Below, one piece after another: positions 3,207 through 28,474 of a stretch of 33,362 nucleotides of DNA; within the stretch, counting starts at the first letter, position 1; each line of letters begins with the position of its first letter. The stretch is from Phycisphaeraceae bacterium (GTDB lineage: Bacteria; Planctomycetota; Phycisphaerae; Phycisphaerales; Zrk34), in the NCBI GenBank assembly GCA_028282685.1, contig JANQHK010000022.1, forward strand, positions 1-33,362. The letters are read 5' to 3'. The position numbers and the translations under genes are program-made. Under the pieces are notes generated by a model, which saw nothing but the letters and a program-made list of their open reading frames with translations, made no database searches and was not told where the DNA came from.

Positions 3207-4223
3207 ATGCGTCTGGCTGTCCTTATTGCAATCTTCATCGCCATCATGGTCGGCGCGGTTTGGTTCGTCCGGCAGATCAGCAGGACCGTTGTCTATGAAT
3301 CGCGCCCTGTCGGCGTGATGGGCACAACCTGCCGGATCGCCGCCGTGGGCAACCGGGGCGCGTTGCACGAAGCATGCGTTCTGGCCGAGAGAGAGCTCCG
3401 CCGCATCGAAGCATTGATGAGCACGTGGATCGACGATTCGGAATTATCAAAGTTTAATCGATCGGACAAAGGCGGCCTGCTGGATGGGGATCTATGCAAG
3501 GTGATCCAGTTCGCAGAGAAGATGTATAAACAAAGTGATGGTGCTTTTGACATCACTGCCAAACCGATTTTTGATTTGTGGAAGCAGTCGGCTGAGCGCG
3601 GCCGGACGCCCGGTACTCAACAAATCGAGCAGGCGCGGTCCGCATCTAACTGGGACCTGCTCACATTGAGTGGAACCGATCGTAATTTTGCATCGAAACT
3701 GAAAAACACGGTCTGTGTTGAAGTGGCTGGATTGGCAAAGGGCTATAGTGTCGACTGGGCATTACGCGAAACGCGGACTGAACATATTGCCGGCGCGCTG
3801 GTGGAGGTGGGCGGTGACATCGCCTGCTTCGGCAGGCAGAACGATGGTTCGCCGTGGCGTGTGAAGGTGAAAAATCCGTTCGGCGAAGGCACGGTGATGA
3901 CGCTGGAACTGCCCGAAGGCGGGGCGGTCTGCACCAGCGGCAACTACGCCCGGTACTACGAGATTGCCGGCAAGCGCTACAGCCGGATCATCGATCCGCG
4001 CACCGGTTGGCCGACCGCGGCCGCAGCCGGCGTGACCGTGATTGCACCGGATTGCATGACCGCCGACGCCTGGGCCACCGCCCTCAGCGTGCTCGGCCCG
4101 GCAGGGTTGGAAAAAATCAATGCCATTAAGGAAATCGATGCCATGCTGATCACCGGCGATGCGGAGGATCGCCAATACCATTATTCGGAAGGATTTAAGC
4201 GGTATATCGCGGAAGAGCGTTAA
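3207..4223 (+). CDS. apbE: FAD:protein FMN transferase (ApbE family), membrane anchored
   Basis: 338 residues, the usual size for ApbE. These enzymes move FMN from FAD onto a Thr/Ser of target proteins such as Na+-NQR or RNF subunits, outside the cytoplasmic membrane. An uncleaved N-terminal hydrophobic anchor covers about residues 3-20, with no lipobox cysteine. Family landmarks are DITAKPIFDLW (115-125), VAGLAKGYSVD (173-183), the flavin-site VGGD (201-204), RIIDPRTGWP (260-269) and the Mg-binding TADAWATALSVLG (285-297). The gene stands alone between divergent aceE and the propeller genes, and no flavinylated partner gene is in the window, so its substrate is unknown. Confidence 0.93.
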   Translation: MRLAVLIAIFIAIMVGAVWFVRQISRTVVYESRPVGVMGTTCRIAAVGNRGALHEACVLAERELRRIEALMSTWIDDSELSKFNRSDKGGLLDGDLCKVIQFAEKMYKQSDGAFDITAKPIFDLWKQSAERGRTPGTQQIEQARSASNWDLLTLSGTDRNFASKLKNTVCVEVAGLAKGYSVDWALRETRTEHIAGALVEVGGDIACFGRQNDGSPWRVKVKNPFGEGTVMTLELPEGGAVCTSGNYARYYEIAGKRYSRIIDPRTGWPTAAAAGVTVIAPDCMTADAWATALSVLGPAGLEKINAIKEIDAMLITGDAEDRQYHYSEGFKRYIAEER

Positions 4224-4281
4224 CCCGCCCTGAAGGGTTGGGGCCTGGGTGGATACCATGCGACTTTCGTCCCGGCGCGGA

Positions 4282-4287
4282 TACAAT
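4282..4287 (+). promoter_or_regulatory. Candidate -10 element (TACAAT) before the first propeller gene
   Basis: TACAAT lies 40 bases upstream of the start codon at 4328, with GCGACT 16 bases upstream of it as a weak -35. AAGGAA (about 4315-4320) supplies a ribosome binding site. The same hexamer recurs upstream of aceE, the ABC module, the tRNA and greA. This is a pattern match without experimental support. Confidence 0.4.
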
Positions 4288-4327
4288 GTCCCGTCACGGA
4301 TAACCCGGCCTGACAAGGAATATCACG

Positions 4328-5539
4328 ATGCGTACCCATGTGTTGATAACAATCGGTCTGGGAATGGTTCTGGCTGCGGCGGCGCAGGCGGCGGACTGGC
4401 CGCAGTGGCGCGGGCCCGATCGCACCGGCGTCTCGCAGGAGACCGACTGGAACAAGGACTGGTCCGGCCGCCCCAGGCAGCTTTGGAAGAAGAACGTCGG
4501 CGTGGGCGCTTCCACCGTTTCCGTAGTTGATGGACGGCTCTACACCATGGGCAACGTCAAAGACACCGATGTGGTCTGGTGTCTGGATGCACGCAGCGGT
4601 AAGGAACTGTGGAAGCACGCCTATGCGTGCAAGCTGGATAAACGTCAGTTTGAAGGAGGCACCGCTTCCACACCCACCGTGAGCGGGGGGAAGGTGTACA
4701 CGCTTTCGCACGAAGGTCACCTGTTCTGCCTCGATGCCGTCAAGGGCAAAGTGCTCTGGTCGAAGCACCTGGTGAAGGACTTCGGCGGCAAGCGTCCTCA
4801 GTGGGGCTATGCATGTTCGCCCCTGATCGTGGACCAGAAGTTGATTGTCGACGCCGGTTCAAAGAGCAAAGGCACCACGCTGGCGCTGAACAAGGACACC
4901 GGCGCGTTGATCTGGGGCTCAAGCAACCGGGATGACGCTGCCTACGCCTCGCACATCACCCTGCAATACAAGGGCAGGCCGGCGGTGGTCGGCATGAGCG
5001 CCAAGCACGTTAACATTCTCGATCTGAAAAACGGCAGGGAACTGGCGCGGTTGTCCTGGGAGACCAGTTACGATGTCAACGCGTCCACGCCGATTCTCGT
5101 GGACGATAAGCACTTGTTTGTTTCGTCGGGCTATTCGACCGGCGGTGGGTTGGTTGACATGTCCGGCTCTGCGCTGAGAAAAGTCTGGCATTCGCGCGAC
5201 ATGAAGAGCAAATTCAATACCGCCGTGCTGCACGAAGGGCACCTGTACGGCGTGGACAATTACGATCTAACCTGCCTGCGCGTCAAAGACGGTAAAACCA
5301 TGTGGACCGTCAAGCGGAAGATCGGACAGGGCAATGTGCTGCTGGCCGACGGCCACCTGATTGTGCTCGCGGAGCATGGCGAGGTGATGGTGGCTCCGGC
5401 GAGCCCGAAAGAATTCAAGCCCATCTCCCGGGCGCAGGTGGTCCGGCGTAAGGCGTGGGTGGTGCCGGTGCTCGCGAACGGCGTGATCTACTGCCGCAAC
5501 AACAACGGCGACCTCGTGGCGCTCGACGTTTCCAGGTAA
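4328..5539 (+). CDS. Secreted PQQ-like beta-propeller repeat protein (403 aa)
   Basis: A Sec signal peptide (about residues 1-21, ending AAAAQAA) precedes WPQWRGPDRTGVS, the hallmark opening of planctomycete PQQ-type propeller proteins. Repeating blade motifs of the form L-D-x-x-x-G-x-x-x-W follow, for example LDARSGKELWK and LDAVKGKVLWSK. They predict a WD40/PQQ-type propeller filling the whole mature protein. No catalytic dehydrogenase motifs or cytochrome domain are visible, so PQQ binding and enzyme activity cannot be assumed. Many such proteins are of unknown role and some act as scaffolds like BamB. It is first in a row of three propeller genes, with 182 bases to the next. The start is fixed by the AAGGAA ribosome binding site. 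Confidence 0.85.
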   Translation: MRTHVLITIGLGMVLAAAAQAADWPQWRGPDRTGVSQETDWNKDWSGRPRQLWKKNVGVGASTVSVVDGRLYTMGNVKDTDVVWCLDARSGKELWKHAYACKLDKRQFEGGTASTPTVSGGKVYTLSHEGHLFCLDAVKGKVLWSKHLVKDFGGKRPQWGYACSPLIVDQKLIVDAGSKSKGTTLALNKDTGALIWGSSNRDDAAYASHITLQYKGRPAVVGMSAKHVNILDLKNGRELARLSWETSYDVNASTPILVDDKHLFVSSGYSTGGGLVDMSGSALRKVWHSRDMKSKFNTAVLHEGHLYGVDNYDLTCLRVKDGKTMWTVKRKIGQGNVLLADGHLIVLAEHGEVMVAPASPKEFKPISRAQVVRRKAWVVPVLANGVIYCRNNNGDLVALDVSR

Positions 5540-5736
5540 ACCCGCCAGCCGACTGTTCATGTGTTCGATGGTTTGGTCATCGGGCAGCTAAGCGGATTTA
5601 AGGGTCGTTTAGTCGGCATTCATTTTCGCCGTCGCGGTTTGCCCTTGCGCCTCTGGCGGTCAACAATTCACCGTTGTCCGGACCTGATGGCGGGCGTTTC
5701 GTGTCCATCCACCATGGCTGAATGGGAAGCATATTC

Positions 5737-8127
5737 ATGTCGCATCGCTTGTGCACAGTGTTAGGTCTGGTCGTGCTCGCCGCCACATTTTCTCCCGCCG
5801 TATTGGCGAAGGGGGAGCCGGCGGTGCGCCCGGGATGGACGGAATGGCGCGGCCCACAGCAGAACGGCTCCAGCCGAGAGAACCATCTGCCCGGCACGTG
5901 GGAGCCCGGAGGCGTGAATCACCTCTGGTCGTTCGATATGCACGGGCGAGGCACGGCCGTCACCCACGGCGATCGCGTGTATGCATGGGGCTATTACGGT
6001 GAAAAGACCGATCTGGTCGAAGCGTTGGTCTGCCTGGAAGTGCGTACGGGTAAGAAAATCTGGGAGCATCGTTTTGGCGACTTCATTTCCGACATCATCT
6101 ACAACCGCTATGCGATCGGCGCCCCGGCGGTGGATGCGGTGACCGGAAACATCTACCTGATGACCAGCCCGGGCCTGGCCATGTGCTTCGATCGCGACGG
6201 CAAGCTGCTCTGGCGGCACTCGATGATGGAAGCGTTCGGACGACTCACGTTTCCCAACGGGCGCACCGGCGCGCCGGTTCTCGATAACGAGTTCGTGATC
6301 TTCCGCGGCATCACCAGCAACTGGGGCAAGCAGGGCCCGGCGCGCGATCGTTTCTATGCCTTCGAGAAAAGTACGGGCAAGCTGGTCTGGGCTTCCACGC
6401 CCGGCGTCGGCCCGCCGTTTCTCAAGGACAGCTCGTTCAGCACGCCCGTCTTTGAAACACGCAAGGGGCTGCGGCTGTTTTACGCCGGAACCGGTTGCGG
6501 AAACGTTGTCTGCGTCAATGCCCGGACCGGCGTGGCGATGTGGCGATACCAGTTCGCCCTGGGCGGGGTGAACAGTTCCCCGGTGATCCACGGCGACAAA
6601 CTGATCGTTCCGCACGGAAAGGAAAATGTCGACGACACCGGCCGGGGCCGAATGGTCGCCATCGATCTCGACCGCGCGCTGAAGCATACGTTCACATCGC
6701 AGTCCTTGAGAAAGCATCCTTACGCGACGCCGACCGTTCTGGACAAAAGCTTTGAACTCTGGCGCAACGATGACATCAGCATGTTCACCAGTTCGCCGAC
6801 GCTGCATGGCAAGCGTGTCTACCAGTTGACCGCCACGGGCGACCTGTTCGCCGTGGATGTGAACACCGGAAAAACGATCTGGAAGAAAAAGCTCGGCAAC
6901 AGCACGTTGCACGCCTCTTCGCTGGCCGCGGACGACAAACTCTACGTGCCGATGTGGGACGATGGCTTGTACATCATCGAAGATACCGGCGACGAAGCGA
7001 AGGTGCTTTATCACGTTGAACCGGACAAGCTGGGCAAATGCATCGGTTCGCCAAGTGTGTGGGACGGTCGCGTTTACCTGCATACCACGGAAAAGCTGCA
7101 TTGCTTCGGCAAGCCGGGCGATGTCGGCTCGGCCCTCTCGGGATTGGGCAAGGGCCTGCTCGAAGGCGGACGGACCATCGTGGAGACGGCCGGCGACGCG
7201 GTGCAGACCGTCCGTCCGACCGGCGATGTGGATGCCTTGCAGGTGGTGCCGGCGGAGGTGTTGCTGCGACCGGGGGAAACGATGGATTTGAGCGTGCGGG
7301 AAATCGACGATCAGGGCCGCCGCGTGCGCCAGCGGGATGGCAACGCCTATTCGTGGGTGCGCTGGATACCGCCCACGGCGAAGGTGAAAGTGGAACTCGA
7401 TGCGGAAGTGAAGGGTGGGGATTTGACCGCGTCGAAAGCGGCGACATATTCCGCCGGTGCGTTCCGGGCGACGCGCGATGATACTGCCGCCGGGACGATG
7501 CGCGGCCGAATCCTGCCCGATCCTCCCTTCCGCGAAGACTTTAATCGGTTCGTGCTGGATCAGACCGATTCGACCGACTCGGCCGGGTTTGCCTATCCGC
7601 CGCTGCCTTGGATCGGGGCTCGGCTGAAGTGGCAGGTGCGCGAGGTCGACGGCGAAAAGGTGCTGGCCAAGACGCTCGATCGCGTGCTGTTTCAGCGTTC
7701 GATGGTGTTTCTCGGGCATCCCGATCAATCGCGTTACACAATTTCCGCGGATTTGATGACCGATGGCAACCGCCGACTGTCGTCTGTCATCGGGTTGATC
7801 AACCAGCGTTACCTGGTGGCGCTGGATGCCAACTGGGGCCACGTCGAGGTCACCAGCAACCACGAGCGCCTGAAGGTGTCGAAATCGATCGACATCAAGC
7901 CGAAGACGTGGTACCGGCTGAAGACGCGCGTGGATGTGAACGCCGACGGTTCGGGTGTGGTGCGGGGCAAGGTCTGGCCGCGCTCCGAAGACGAGCCGGC
8001 AACGTGGACCATTGAAGTTCCCGTCGAGCGGGCGCACCGTCAGGGCTCGCCGGGCCTGTATGGTTTCAGTCCGCAGAGTAAGTTCCGTGTGTATATCGAT
8101 AACGTATCGGTTATTCCAAACGGATGA
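5737..8127 (+). CDS. Secreted PQQ-like propeller protein with C-terminal jelly-roll domain (796 aa)
   Basis: The start at 5737 is preferred over an in-frame ATG at 5722 because GGGAAG (5724-5729) lies 7 bases before it and it leaves a clean signal peptide (MSHRLCTVLGLVVLA..). The mature protein opens with GWTEWRGPQQNGSS. Blade motifs (LEVRTGKKIWEH, VDVNTGKTIWKKK) run to about residue 480. A segment near 500-590 (VVPAEVLLRPGETMDLSV) resembles a bacterial Ig-like domain. The last 190 residues, from about 600, look like a concanavalin-type jelly roll, with FREDFNRF near their start and a terminal YIDNVSVI. A related C-terminal module makes up most of the 239-residue protein at 27623-28342. Function is unknown; the architecture suggests extracytoplasmic binding. 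Confidence 0.85.
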   Translation: MSHRLCTVLGLVVLAATFSPAVLAKGEPAVRPGWTEWRGPQQNGSSRENHLPGTWEPGGVNHLWSFDMHGRGTAVTHGDRVYAWGYYGEKTDLVEALVCLEVRTGKKIWEHRFGDFISDIIYNRYAIGAPAVDAVTGNIYLMTSPGLAMCFDRDGKLLWRHSMMEAFGRLTFPNGRTGAPVLDNEFVIFRGITSNWGKQGPARDRFYAFEKSTGKLVWASTPGVGPPFLKDSSFSTPVFETRKGLRLFYAGTGCGNVVCVNARTGVAMWRYQFALGGVNSSPVIHGDKLIVPHGKENVDDTGRGRMVAIDLDRALKHTFTSQSLRKHPYATPTVLDKSFELWRNDDISMFTSSPTLHGKRVYQLTATGDLFAVDVNTGKTIWKKKLGNSTLHASSLAADDKLYVPMWDDGLYIIEDTGDEAKVLYHVEPDKLGKCIGSPSVWDGRVYLHTTEKLHCFGKPGDVGSALSGLGKGLLEGGRTIVETAGDAVQTVRPTGDVDALQVVPAEVLLRPGETMDLSVREIDDQGRRVRQRDGNAYSWVRWIPPTAKVKVELDAEVKGGDLTASKAATYSAGAFRATRDDTAAGTMRGRILPDPPFREDFNRFVLDQTDSTDSAGFAYPPLPWIGARLKWQVREVDGEKVLAKTLDRVLFQRSMVFLGHPDQSRYTISADLMTDGNRRLSSVIGLINQRYLVALDANWGHVEVTSNHERLKVSKSIDIKPKTWYRLKTRVDVNADGSGVVRGKVWPRSEDEPATWTIEVPVERAHRQGSPGLYGFSPQSKFRVYIDNVSVIPNG

Positions 8128-8164
8128 ATTGACGACCTTACTGCGCATACAGAGAGCCGGAATT

Positions 8165-9844
8165 ATGCAAACGAACCAAATCCGAAATTCGAAACCCGAA
8201 ACCCGAATGAATGCTCCAATGGCTCAAATCCGAAGAATTGCTGCTTTGGATTTGGGATTTCTTTCGTCATTCGGACTTCGTCATTCGGGTTTCCGCCGCC
8301 GTACTCAGGGCCATTGGTGTCGGTGCGTCATTGCGTTGTTCTCAGTCTTCCTCCCGGCACTACCAGCGGTCGCGGCGGATTGGCCGACGTGGGGCCGCGG
8401 ACCGTCGCGCAACATGACGGCGCCGCGGGCCGAGCAGTTACCCACCGATTTCAATCCCGGCGCCATCGGTGAAAACGAAGTCATCGACCCTGCTACCACG
8501 AAGCACGTGAAGTGGACGGCGAAGCTCGGTTCGCAGAGTTACGGCAACACCGTAGTGGCCGGGGGCCGCGTGTACGTCGGCACCAACAACGCCTGGCCGC
8601 GCGACAGCAAATACCAAGGCGACCGCGCCACGCTCTATTGCTTCGATGAGAAGACGGGCGAGTTCATCTGGCAACTGGTGGTTCCCAAGTTGGGCGCGGG
8701 CAAGGTCAGCGACTGGGAATACCTGGGCATCTGCTCCAGCCCCGCCGTGGAGGGCGATCGCCTCTATTTGGTGACCAACCGATGCGAGATCGTCTGCCTG
8801 GATACCCGGGGCATGGCCGACGGCAACCAGGGCGTCACCGACGAACCGCAGTACACGGCCGGTCCCGGCAAGCCGCCCATCCCGCAAGGTCCGACCGATG
8901 CCGATGTGATCTGGCGCTACGACATGCGCGATGAACTGGGCGTCTTCCCGCACAACATCGCCTCGAACAGCCCGCTGGTGGTCGGCGATTATGTTTACGT
9001 CGCCACGTCCAACGGCGTCGACTGGTCGCATACCAACATCCCCAACCCGCGCAGTCCCGCACTGATTGCCCTGGATAAGAAAACGGGCGAACTGGCGGGC
9101 GAGGAAATGTCCGACATCTCCAAGCGCATGCTGCACTGCAATTGGGCGAGCCCGGCTTATACCGAGGAAGGCGGCGCCAAGCAGATCGTCTGGGGCGGTG
9201 GGGACGGCTGGTGCTACGGATTCGCCGCCAAGCCCGTCGTGGACGAAGACGGCTACGGTGAGTTGAAGGAATTATGGCGCTTCGACTGCAATCCGCCGCG
9301 CTATCGCACCGGCAAGGATGGCAAGCCGATCAAGTACGCCACGCCCGACGGGCCCAGCGAGTGCATCGGCACGCCGATCATTTACAACGGCAAGGCCTAC
9401 ATCGCCATCGGGCAGGATCCGGAGCACGGCGAGGGCGTCGGCAGCTTTTCCTGCATCGATATCTCCAAGCGCGGCGACATCACGCAGACCGGCAAGGTCT
9501 GGCAGTACACTGGCATCGACCGTTCGATCAGCACCGCCGGTGCCGCCGATGGGCTGGTGTACATCGCCGATTACGCCGGCGTGGTGCACTGCCTCGATGC
9601 CGAGAACGGCACGCTTTACTGGAAGCACGACACCGGCAGCCACATCTGGGGCTCCACGCTCCTGGCCGACGGCAAGGTGTACCTCGGCAACGAAGACAAG
9701 CAGATCGTGATCCTGGCGCACGGCAAAGAGAAGAAGATCATCAACGTGGTGGATTTCGGTTCGCAGGTCTATTCCACACCGATCGTCGCCAACGGCGTGA
9801 TGTATATCTCCACACAAACCCACCTCTACGCGATTCAACCGTGA
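8165..9844 (+). CDS. Secreted PQQ-like propeller protein with repeat-derived N-terminus (559 aa)
   Basis: The propeller part begins at DWPTWGRGPSRN and carries blade motifs such as LDAENGTLYWKHD near the end. It is preceded by a hydrophobic stretch ending LPALPAVAA that looks like a signal peptide core. The only in-frame ATGs close upstream (8165, 8207, 8219) put 35-55 extra residues before that core, encoded by an inverted repeat. ATG 8165 is chosen because AGAGAG (8151-8156) gives a ribosome binding site at good spacing and the gap to the previous gene is 37 bases. ATG 8219 is the main alternative (541 aa). The stop overlaps the next gene by 4 bases. The exact N-terminus is uncertain; the propeller assignment is not. 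Confidence 0.8.
   Translation: MQTNQIRNSKPETRMNAPMAQIRRIAALDLGFLSSFGLRHSGFRRRTQGHWCRCVIALFSVFLPALPAVAADWPTWGRGPSRNMTAPRAEQLPTDFNPGAIGENEVIDPATTKHVKWTAKLGSQSYGNTVVAGGRVYVGTNNAWPRDSKYQGDRATLYCFDEKTGEFIWQLVVPKLGAGKVSDWEYLGICSSPAVEGDRLYLVTNRCEIVCLDTRGMADGNQGVTDEPQYTAGPGKPPIPQGPTDADVIWRYDMRDELGVFPHNIASNSPLVVGDYVYVATSNGVDWSHTNIPNPRSPALIALDKKTGELAGEEMSDISKRMLHCNWASPAYTEEGGAKQIVWGGGDGWCYGFAAKPVVDEDGYGELKELWRFDCNPPRYRTGKDGKPIKYATPDGPSECIGTPIIYNGKAYIAIGQDPEHGEGVGSFSCIDISKRGDITQTGKVWQYTGIDRSISTAGAADGLVYIADYAGVVHCLDAENGTLYWKHDTGSHIWGSTLLADGKVYLGNEDKQIVILAHGKEKKIINVVDFGSQVYSTPIVANGVMYISTQTHLYAIQP
8177..8293. repeat. Interspersed inverted repeat inside the 5' end of a propeller gene
   Basis: GAAACCCGAATGA at 8198-8210 and TCATTCGGGTTTC at 8281-8293 are perfect 13-base inverted arms. 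They are flanked by tandem variants (AAATCCGAAATTCGAAACCCG on the left, CGTCATTCGG twice on the right). From memory, repeats of the AATCCGAA/GACGAA type are scattered between genes in planctomycete genomes. Here the element is fully open in the frame of the downstream gene. Confidence 0.8.
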
Positions 9845-10083
9845 AAGCACCTGTGATTATTGGTGTCGCGGCGGTTGTGCTGGGCATCCTGCACCAGGAC
9901 TTCTGGTGGTGGGAGGATACGTCGCTGGTGTTCGGCTTCCTGCCGGTGGGTTTGGCCTACCATGCGGGATTCTCGGTGGCGGCGGCGTTGCTCTGGGCGG
10001 CGGCGGTGAAGTTCGCCTGGCCGAGGCGACTGGAAGAATGGGCCGATGAATCCGGCGAAGGGCGGGGAGGCGAGAACGCATGA
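9841..10083 (+). CDS. DUF3311 small membrane protein
   Basis: 80 residues starting at GTG, which overlaps the preceding stop (GTGA). The stop in turn overlaps the next start (ATGA at 10080), so it is translationally coupled on both sides. Two transmembrane helices are evident (about 4-18 and 28-55). The segment FGFLPVGLAYHAGFSVAAALLW matches the conserved P-x-G-L-x-Y-H core of DUF3311, and HQDFWWWED fits the short loop before it. DUF3311 genes typically sit just upstream of sodium:solute symporter genes, exactly as here, so it is likely an accessory subunit of the symporter. The charged tail (EEWADESGEGRGGENA) is probably cytoplasmic. Confidence 0.85.
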   Translation: MKAPVIIGVAAVVLGILHQDFWWWEDTSLVFGFLPVGLAYHAGFSVAAALLWAAAVKFAWPRRLEEWADESGEGRGGENA

Positions 10084-11648
10084 GCTTTCCCCTGGCTGCA
10101 ACCGATGTCTCGTCGACACCACTCTGGGTGATCGCAGGTTACCTGGCGATGTTGGTGGCGTTGGGGGCGCTGGCGGGTCGATTCTTTCGCGGGACCAGCA
10201 AAGATTACTTCGTCGCCTCGCGCTCCATCGGGCCGTTCCTGTTGCTCATGAGCGTGTTCGGCACCACGATGACCGGCTTCGCGCTCGTCGGCTCCACCGC
10301 CAAGAGTTTCGAGCAGGGCATCGGCGTGTACGGACTGATGGCGTCGTGGTCCGGACTGGTCCACTCGGCGGTGTTTTTCCTGGTCGGCATCAAACTCTGG
10401 GCCGTCGGCAAGCGGTACGGCTACGTTACGCAGGTGCAATACTTCCGTGCTCGCTTCGACTCGCCGATGCTGGGCTACCTGCTGTTTCCGATTCTGGTTG
10501 CGCTGGTGATCCCGTACCTGCTGGTGGGCATCATCGCCGCGTGCAAAACACTGCAACCCGTCACGGCGGGCATGTTCCCGCAAACTTTCGCTTCGACGAA
10601 CGGCGCCGTGCCGCCCTGGCTGACCGGACTGGTGGTCTGCGGCGTGGTGCTCAGTTATGTCTTCTTCGGCGGCGTGCGATCCGCGGCCTGGGCCAATACG
10701 TTCCAGACCCTGGTCTTCATGGGCACGGGCGTCATCGCCTTCGTGATGATCTCCCGCGCGCTGGGCGGTGTTGGTGAAGCGGGGCGTATGGTTCTCGAAC
10801 ATGCCCCCGAGCACGCGGCGCGCGAAGGTTTGATCGGAAAGACGCAATTCCTCAGTTACGTGTTCATCCCGCTTTCGGTCGGCATGTTCCCGCACCTGTT
10901 TCAACACTGGTTGACGGCACGCAAAGCCAAAACGTTCCGGTTGACCGTGGTGGCGCATCCGCTGTTCATTGCGATCGTCTGGGTGCCCTGCATTCTGATC
11001 GGCATGTGGGCGGCGGGATTGGCGGCGGCGGGGGAAATGAACGTGCCCAACGCCAACGCCGCGCTGGGCCGCATGGTCAGCGTCCTGGTCCACAACGACC
11101 TGCTGACCGGCCTGCTCACCGCGGGCATTCTCGCCGCCATCATGAGTTCGCTTGATTCGCAGTTCGTCTGCCTGGGCACGATGTTCACCAACGACATGGT
11201 TCTGCATATCGCCGGTGAAAAACGATTCACCGATCGCCAGTTGATCTGGCTGGCGCGCGGGTTCGTGGTGGGGATCGTGGCGCTGGCGTACGGCTTGTCG
11301 ATGGCGCTGCTGAAAGTAAACGTGTTCGACCTGGGCGTGTGGTGTTTCAGCGGCTTTGCGTCTTTGTTCCCGCTGGTCTTCGCCGCCGTGTATTGGAAGC
11401 GGGCCACGCGTGCCGGGGCATTCGCTTGTGTGTTGGTGACGGCGGCGGTCTGGGGCGTTTTCTTCTACCGGGATATCATCGTCGGGGCCGGCGGCGATCA
11501 GGAATACCTCGTGCTGGGCATGATGCCGGTGGCGTTCATCTTCGCCGCGTCGGCCGGATCGCTGGTGTTGATTTCGTTGATGACCCGGCCGCTGTCCGAT
11601 GCGGTGATAAACAAGTTCTTCATGAACGCGGGGAGCCAATCCGAATGA
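10080..11648 (+). CDS. Sodium:solute symporter family protein
   Basis: 522 residues with about 13 hydrophobic helices, the size and layout of the SSS family (PutP/PanF type). Conserved features include the early FFRGTSKDYFVASRSIGPF segment, GTTMTGFALVGS in TM2, a helix with YVFFGGVRSAAWANTFQ, and MSSLDSQFVCLGTMFTNDM around TM8-9 with the Ser/Asp residues common near the sodium site. The substrate cannot be read from sequence; acids, amino acids and vitamins are all transported by the family. It is coupled to DUF3311 upstream and to the adenylating enzyme downstream (ATGA at 11645), so a carboxylic acid substrate is plausible but inferred. Confidence 0.92.
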   Translation: MSFPLAATDVSSTPLWVIAGYLAMLVALGALAGRFFRGTSKDYFVASRSIGPFLLLMSVFGTTMTGFALVGSTAKSFEQGIGVYGLMASWSGLVHSAVFFLVGIKLWAVGKRYGYVTQVQYFRARFDSPMLGYLLFPILVALVIPYLLVGIIAACKTLQPVTAGMFPQTFASTNGAVPPWLTGLVVCGVVLSYVFFGGVRSAAWANTFQTLVFMGTGVIAFVMISRALGGVGEAGRMVLEHAPEHAAREGLIGKTQFLSYVFIPLSVGMFPHLFQHWLTARKAKTFRLTVVAHPLFIAIVWVPCILIGMWAAGLAAAGEMNVPNANAALGRMVSVLVHNDLLTGLLTAGILAAIMSSLDSQFVCLGTMFTNDMVLHIAGEKRFTDRQLIWLARGFVVGIVALAYGLSMALLKVNVFDLGVWCFSGFASLFPLVFAAVYWKRATRAGAFACVLVTAAVWGVFFYRDIIVGAGGDQEYLVLGMMPVAFIFAASAGSLVLISLMTRPLSDAVINKFFMNAGSQSE

Positions 11649-28400: not shown

Positions 28401-28474
28401 GCCACCGTAGCTCAGCTGGTCAGAGCAGCGGTTTTGTAAACCGCAGGTCGTCGGTTCGAATCCGACCGGTGGCT
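28401..28474 (+). tRNA. tRNA-Thr (anticodon UGU)
   Basis: A complete cloverleaf can be drawn. The acceptor stem is GCCACCG (28401-28407) with CGGTGGC (28467-28473) and discriminator T28474. The D arm contains AGCTCAGCTGGTCAGAGC. The anticodon stem GCGGT/ACCGC holds the loop TTTGTAA, giving anticodon TGT for ACA codons. The T arm is GTCGG-TTCGAAT-CCGAC (28450-28466). The 3' CCA is not encoded. A TTTTT run follows at 28474-28478. It separates the long plus-strand operon from convergent minus-strand genes. Confidence 0.97.

Follow-up and report, generated by a model that had tools for sequence, protein, structure and literature searches.

A gene-less palindromic element with heptad arms, probably read in frame at the 5' end of a planctomycete gene for a secreted beta-propeller protein

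Rickettsia palindromic elements (RPE) are palindromic repeats found in frame in unrelated protein genes, metabolic genes among them, and according to one account they are thought to be compatible with the host protein (PMC10969869). The intervening sequence (IVS) of Coxiella burnetii, as one report describes it, carries an S23p open reading frame whose flanks are complementary and pair into a stem, with tandem heptamers (GACAGAT) just upstream of the ORF whose number varies among strains (PMC4990558). The same report calls this IVS a selfish element, and states that the origin and function of the IVS and of the S23p/IVP protein have been unclear for more than 25 years (PMC4990558). REP elements are described as interspersed palindromes, mostly intergenic and sometimes in genes, that are known from planctomycetes and verrucomicrobia (PMC3733652). 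In the titles and abstract openings of the open-licence literature we found no description of dispersed heptad-armed PF05635 elements or of gene-less copies of them.

We identified a palindromic element at the 5' end of a gene for a secreted protein in the window, the whole stretch of 33,362 nt that was analyzed. The features of the region are listed below; L286 is a locus in the same genome with a full-length relative of the element.

5722..8127, + strand: upstream gene, encoding another PQQ_2 beta-propeller protein; it lies upstream in relatives too
8152..8156, + strand: GAGAG, a weak Shine-Dalgarno-like match before ATG 8165 (duplex energy -5.7)
8165..9844, + strand: reading frame of the secreted beta-propeller (PQQ_2/BamB-like) protein, with ATG 8165 as the favored start
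8174..8293, + strand: palindromic heptad element, 120 nt, equal to codons 4-43 from ATG 8165 and in frame (homology to both L286 flanks; fold)
8174..8236, + strand: left half, the 7-mers ATCCGAA ATTCGAA ACCCGAA ACCCGAA followed by a non-repetitive inner part (L286 left arm, local score 32.5)
8198..8210, + strand: left copy of a 13-bp perfect inverted repeat (repeat search)
8219..8221, + strand: ATG matching the start codon of the L286 four-helix-bundle gene (window CCAATGGCTCAAATCCGAAGA, L286 CCAATGTCGCAAACCCAAAGA), in frame with ATG 8165
8250..8293, + strand: right half, reverse-complement 7-mers (L286 right arm, local score 24)
8281..8293, + strand: right copy of the 13-bp perfect inverted repeat (repeat search)
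8294..8377, + strand: host part of the signal peptide (RRRTQGHWCRCVIALFSVFLPALPAVAA), ending at the mature-protein motif DWP (ortholog alignment)

Read from ATG 8165, the gene would consist of three host codons, 40 element codons, the remainder of the signal peptide, and the mature protein from about residue 72. The frame has been open since an in-frame stop at 7937. Its protein matches PF13360 (PQQ_2) in a profile search, and the NCBIfam scan gave no match above cut-off. The motif DWP begins at 8378, and the mature protein is intact over its full length, with about 60% identity to its orthologs and without a stop or frameshift. At the position equivalent to GAGAG 8152..8156 the ortholog L014 has AGAGAGCC, then ATG, a context that the two genes share. 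Genes for an ApbE-family protein, three PQQ_2 beta-propeller proteins and a sodium:solute symporter are clustered at window 3207-11648. A tRNA-Thr (TGT) lies at window 28401-28474; at gathering thresholds, Rfam models identified only tRNA in the window, and no rRNA.

The 13-nt arms at 8198-8210 and 8281-8293 are 100% complementary and are spaced by 70 nt. The fold of 8179-8293 has an energy of -42.3 kcal/mol. The 200 dinucleotide shuffles gave -26.7 +/- 3.2 (z -4.85), and none of them folded as well. A first-pass annotation had described an inverted repeat with 13-base arms within 8165-8340, and both the perfect arm pair and the fold bear this out. It had also called the repeat interspersed, which agrees with the 39 matches of CGAANNNCGAANNNCGAA in the 2.94-Mb genome, compared with 2 for the reversed control. 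The extent has been refined by homology to 8174-8293, exactly 120 nt; the ends of the heptad element copies differ by several bases, as seen both among the copies of this genome and in the PF05635 alignments. GC content is about 0.40-0.47 across most of the element, compared with 0.62 for the whole window.

Four-unit heptad arrays of the CGAA type occur in 13 of the 41 genomes searched, and those of the CCAA type in 12. The arrays of G003 and G001 form converging pairs that are mostly intergenic and have unrelated loops. The G003 loci L242-L256 are palindromes of about 100 nt, with near-identical heptad arms and unrelated loops of about 30 nt.

We examined 15 heptad sites in the window's own genome (G000), namely the window and 14 sites in L077-L089; this tally leaves out C8, C40 and C92, where two chance units lie in ordinary-looking coding sequence. 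Whether the same element occurs in frame elsewhere in the genome had been proposed as a check in the first-pass annotation, and it does. At five of the 15 sites the array is in frame inside a conserved coding region, that of the window gene or of the genes for aconitase, UbiD, NAD synthetase and IspF. The heptad peptide of aconitase (PEARSPKPE) lies where the alignment to a solved relative is poor and variable, that of UbiD falls within a 19-residue gap of E. coli UbiD, and that of the glutamine-dependent NAD synthetase is beside a 10-residue insertion relative to 5kha. IspF has the N-terminus MRKSEIRNPKSEIRIGHGFDLHR, and its homology starts directly after the heptad peptide, which makes it the closest parallel to the window gene. 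Two further sites, C67:23492 and C48:38644, form the C-terminal ends of genes; one of these genes is presumably XseB-like, and the other lies upstream of what we take to be an RnfB-like gene (both names are drawn from sequence). One site flanks a PF05635 gene (C152), and the other seven are intergenic, at contig ends or unplaced. Both G000:C62:1-39 and G000:C117:7518-7556, at contig ends, consist of the same TGACGAA array, which suggests that the assembly breaks at heptad repeats. Many of the relatives' genomes are draft assemblies, and contigs can break at such repeats.

At the C152 site (L286/L086) two heptad arms enclose an ORF of 138 aa that matches PF05635 with 53.2 bits (cut-off 33.8). 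The genome has five PF05635 ("23S rRNA IVP") places, none of them in contig C25. The full-length element spans L086:1360-1842; its neighbors are presumably a LolC/FtsX-like permease gene and a LolD-like ATPase gene.

For each PF05635 locus we compared the two 200-nt flanks for an ungapped inverted repeat, using a 99% null threshold. The sample consisted of 50 loci and then 27 new ones, which are the part of all matches with a locus extracted; L339 and L343 entered with short left flanks. Arms above the threshold were found at 38 of the 50 loci and at 22 of the 27 more from across the phylum (60/77 in total), and 17 of the 77 have no significant arms. Controls shifted by 900 nt gave 0/99 and 0/51 (0/150), and swapped flanks gave 3/300 and 0/162 (3/462). 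At 41 of the 60 positive loci the best arm period is 7 nt, and at another 15 it is 8 nt (56/60); a best period of 7 or 8 nt was obtained for 51 of 308 random segment pairs. Similarity of the arms correlates with similarity of the proteins between genomes (rho 0.235; 59 loci and 1654 pairs, with L339, at a contig edge, left out), and none of 2000 permutations was as high. The effect is modest because recognizable arms are common only to close protein pairs: an arm score of at least 16 is reached by 12% of the pairs with a protein similarity of at least 0.5, and by none below 0.35.

Window 8174-8236 aligns to the left flank of L286, and this match covers the non-repetitive inner part and the start codon as well; 8250-8293 aligns to the right flank. 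The match to the L286 flanks has a z of 12.1, compared with at most 0.3 for the other four PF05635 loci of the genome. We compared 26 hand-picked palindromes with PF05635 flanks (five from G000, the window included, 15 from G003, five from G001 and one from G006). The other four G000 palindromes also match L286 best, and all 15 from G003 match L288 best, the single locus of the same type in that genome. The G006 palindrome, which lies upstream of the ortholog, best matches L314 of the same genome. The G001 palindromes are less clean, as four of the five favor L291 or tie and one favors L290. The window element has no four-helix-bundle gene, of which about six first codons remain. Judged from the alignments, 8174-8293 looks like the arm, first codons and arm of a four-helix-bundle element from which the gene body would have been deleted. 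It has periodic arms and homology beyond the 7-mers, as a non-autonomous derivative of a heptad-armed PF05635 element would; it is not an autonomous element of this type.

Eleven clear orthologs of the window gene, with 57-64% identity, were identified in the 41 genomes, and the 80 loci of a further survey, in named genomes, overlap them (L093, for example, is L013). An anchor on the DW of the mature protein was available for 76 of the 80, and in 71 of the 76 an in-frame ATG precedes DW by 15-45 codons. The remaining loci are four with no DW anchor and five that are anchored and have no ATG at 15-45 codons (L099, L125, L127, L131 and L164). Among relatives that lack a heptad palindrome, the ATG may overlap slightly with the upstream gene, as in L011, or follow its stop by up to about 50 nt (L014). 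Three of the eleven orthologs (L013, L019 and L021) have a heptad palindrome of different sequence between the upstream stop and the ATG, which suggests that elements have entered this intergenic spot more than once, mostly in the leader. For heptad palindromes at this locus, the leader position is commoner than the in-frame position.

Two other orthologs, L016 (G032) and L020 (G020), have a GC-rich interspersed repeat of another kind, in frame after the conserved ATG (L016:1384-1500; L020 on the reverse strand). This ATG has a strong Shine-Dalgarno-like GGAGAAG and lies 53 codons before DWP in both; a later GTG could serve as the start in L020 but not in L016. The repeat has 41 matches in G020 and 32 in G032. 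No purifying selection on the extended N-terminus was found in the comparison of L016 with L020 (21, 17 and 17 changes at codon positions 1, 2 and 3). The two genes are an independent parallel to the window element. Copies of the GC-rich repeat in opposite orientation flank Y1 transposase (PF01797) genes (G020:C6, G032:C152 and G016:C6). This suggests a REP/RAYT repeat, and so another system occupying the position of the window element. In the ortholog at L126:2400-2560 (Verrucomicrobia OFTM167), degenerate TTCACTG-type repeats encode the hydrophobic signal-peptide core, YCSLITVHFLLFHCSLCF; this may be a third independent case.

The probable explanation for the window gene is that a gene-less copy of a heptad-armed PF05635 element inserted in frame behind an old start, ATG 8165, and is read as coding sequence. 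In-frame ATGs occur at 8165, 8207 and 8219, and in-frame TTGs inside the element at 8246 and 8252; the only candidates between 8294 and DWP are ATT 8330 (16 codons before it) and TTG 8336 (14 codons before it). The first-pass annotation had held that start codons occur only within or before the repeat. This holds in that no ATG, GTG or TTG lies in frame at 8294-8335, between the element and the signal-peptide core, although the two TTGs inside the element had been omitted. It had offered two readings, in which the repeat is either exapted as coding sequence or part of the leader of a gene with a non-ATG start. We favor the first, coding use, on several grounds. No later ATG, GTG or TTG leaves a complete signal peptide. 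ATG 8165 has the best anti-Shine-Dalgarno energy (-5.7) of the ATG and TTG candidates within or before the element (the others range from -0.2 to -1.8), although this value is moderate against the background (median -2.9, 5% quantile -7.4), and it sits 37 nt past the stop of the upstream gene, as in element-free orthologs. The 71 codons from 8165 to DWP become 31 once the 40 element codons are removed, which is within the range of the 71 orthologs. Finally, the same repeat is found in frame elsewhere in the genome. The benefit implied by the word exapted did not hold up, as no test supported one. Initiation would probably be at 8165 rather than at 8207, 8219, 8246 or 8252. The predicted mRNA structure was of no help as an argument for this start, as the codon at 8165 is itself buried (unpaired probability 0.03).

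It is doubtful that translation starts inside the element, either at ATG 8219, as a remnant of the four-helix-bundle gene, or at TTG 8246 or 8252, so that only part of the element is coding. In the alignment the ATG coincides with the parent gene's start codon, and the TTGs lie 44 and 42 codons before DWP, near the range of the orthologs. However, the Shine-Dalgarno energies at 8219, 8246 and 8252 are very weak (-0.2, -1.8 and -1.3), and all three codons are buried in the predicted stem (unpaired probability at most 0.02). A start at any of them would still make the element coding sequence.

We consider it improbable that the whole element lies in an untranslated leader, with the start after it at ATT 8330 or at TTG 8336, which would truncate the signal peptide. 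The palindromes of L013, L019 and L021 do occupy this position, and the duplex energies before 8330 and 8336 (both -5.3) are close to that of 8165. However, so short a remainder before DWP loses the basic n-region RRRTQGHWCRC, and an ATG at 15-45 codons is present in 71 of the 76 anchored orthologs. ATT start codons are very rare.

There is similarly little to recommend a damaged gene, whose mRNA would be cleaved by RNase III at the hairpin, with the start split from the body and the frame open only by chance. The Coxiella intervening sequence is reported to be excised by RNase III (PMC4990558), and two of the three forward frames of the element are open, so that the open frame alone is weak evidence. 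However, the mature protein shows no sign of decay, and the frame is preserved across this repeat in five genes of the genome.

Finally, it is very improbable that the repeat is a REP-type palindrome moved by RAYT (Y1) transposases and not a four-helix-bundle element: PF01797 genes occur in 30 of the 41 genomes, this one included, and in G020, G032 and G016 they are flanked by the GC-rich repeat described above, but none of the four PF01797 places of this genome is within 6 kb of a heptad site (the nearest is C117:423-716, compared with 7518), and the gene between the heptad arms that align to the window element is instead a PF05635 gene, so we rejected RAYT mobilization of the heptad elements.

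If a gene-less copy did insert in frame behind ATG 8165, as the comparison with orthologs of about 60% identity suggests, the non-autonomous, internally deleted element would have entered three codons behind the start. The gene would stay open, as the 120-nt insert has no stops in the frame used, and the product would gain about 40 residues (NQIRNSKPETRMNAPMAQIRRIAALDLGFLSSFGLRHSGF) ahead of the signal-peptide core. The resulting signal peptide with its long n-region presumably works, and the extension would be removed together with it. An open frame and removal with the signal peptide may be why the insertion is tolerated, and tolerance would be enough, with no benefit to the host required. 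The element may move using the four-helix-bundle protein or a partner of that protein; to our knowledge, the protein has no known recombinase activity.

It is possible, and we suggest it tentatively, that PF05635 proteins are the specificity factors of minimal selfish elements found throughout the phylum. Each subfamily would recognize its own 7- or 8-nt unit in inverted arms, gene-less copies would spread in trans, and stop-free copies would be translated in signal peptides and housekeeping enzymes. The general architecture outside rRNA, with a gene between inverted 7- or 8-mer arms, arms that track the protein subfamily, and gene-less copies, poses a testable question of protein-DNA or protein-RNA recognition. 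The window gene would also add a bacterial phylum to the few cases of palindromic selfish DNA in frame in conserved proteins, and gene callers may mis-set the N-termini of planctomycete proteins at such repeats. An element-free allele of the locus would run from ATG 8165 into CGCCGCCGT.

The short tandemly repeated repetitive sequences (STRR) of cyanobacteria are dispersed short tandem 7-mers, whereas the heptads described here are arranged as inverted arms and show a link to PF05635 genes. Like a MITE, as that class is characterized in PMC10969869, the window element is small and repeated, has inverted arms, and is apparently an internal-deletion derivative of a gene-bearing element. However, no transposase was found, and the only gene of its parent encodes the four-helix-bundle protein. 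It resembles REP elements, as far as these have been outlined above, in being an interspersed palindrome whose copies can lie in frame inside conserved coding regions. However, it is about 120 nt long with arms of 7-nt period, compared with 20-40 nt for REP, and no Y1 transposase gene adjoins the heptad sites in its own genome, the nearest being more than 6 kb away. Compared by description only, the window element works like an RPE, being palindromic and in frame in unrelated genes, and we do not claim it as a member. It comes from another phylum, its arms are tandem 7-mers, and it has a full-length relative with a four-helix-bundle gene. The intervening sequences of 23S rRNA differ in location, since neither the window element, at the 5' end of its host gene, nor its full-length relative is in a 23S rRNA gene; both are found in or between genes for proteins, and the window copy is gene-less. 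However, the full-length relative, with its PF05635-type gene between complementary flanks, is closest in anatomy to these intervening sequences.
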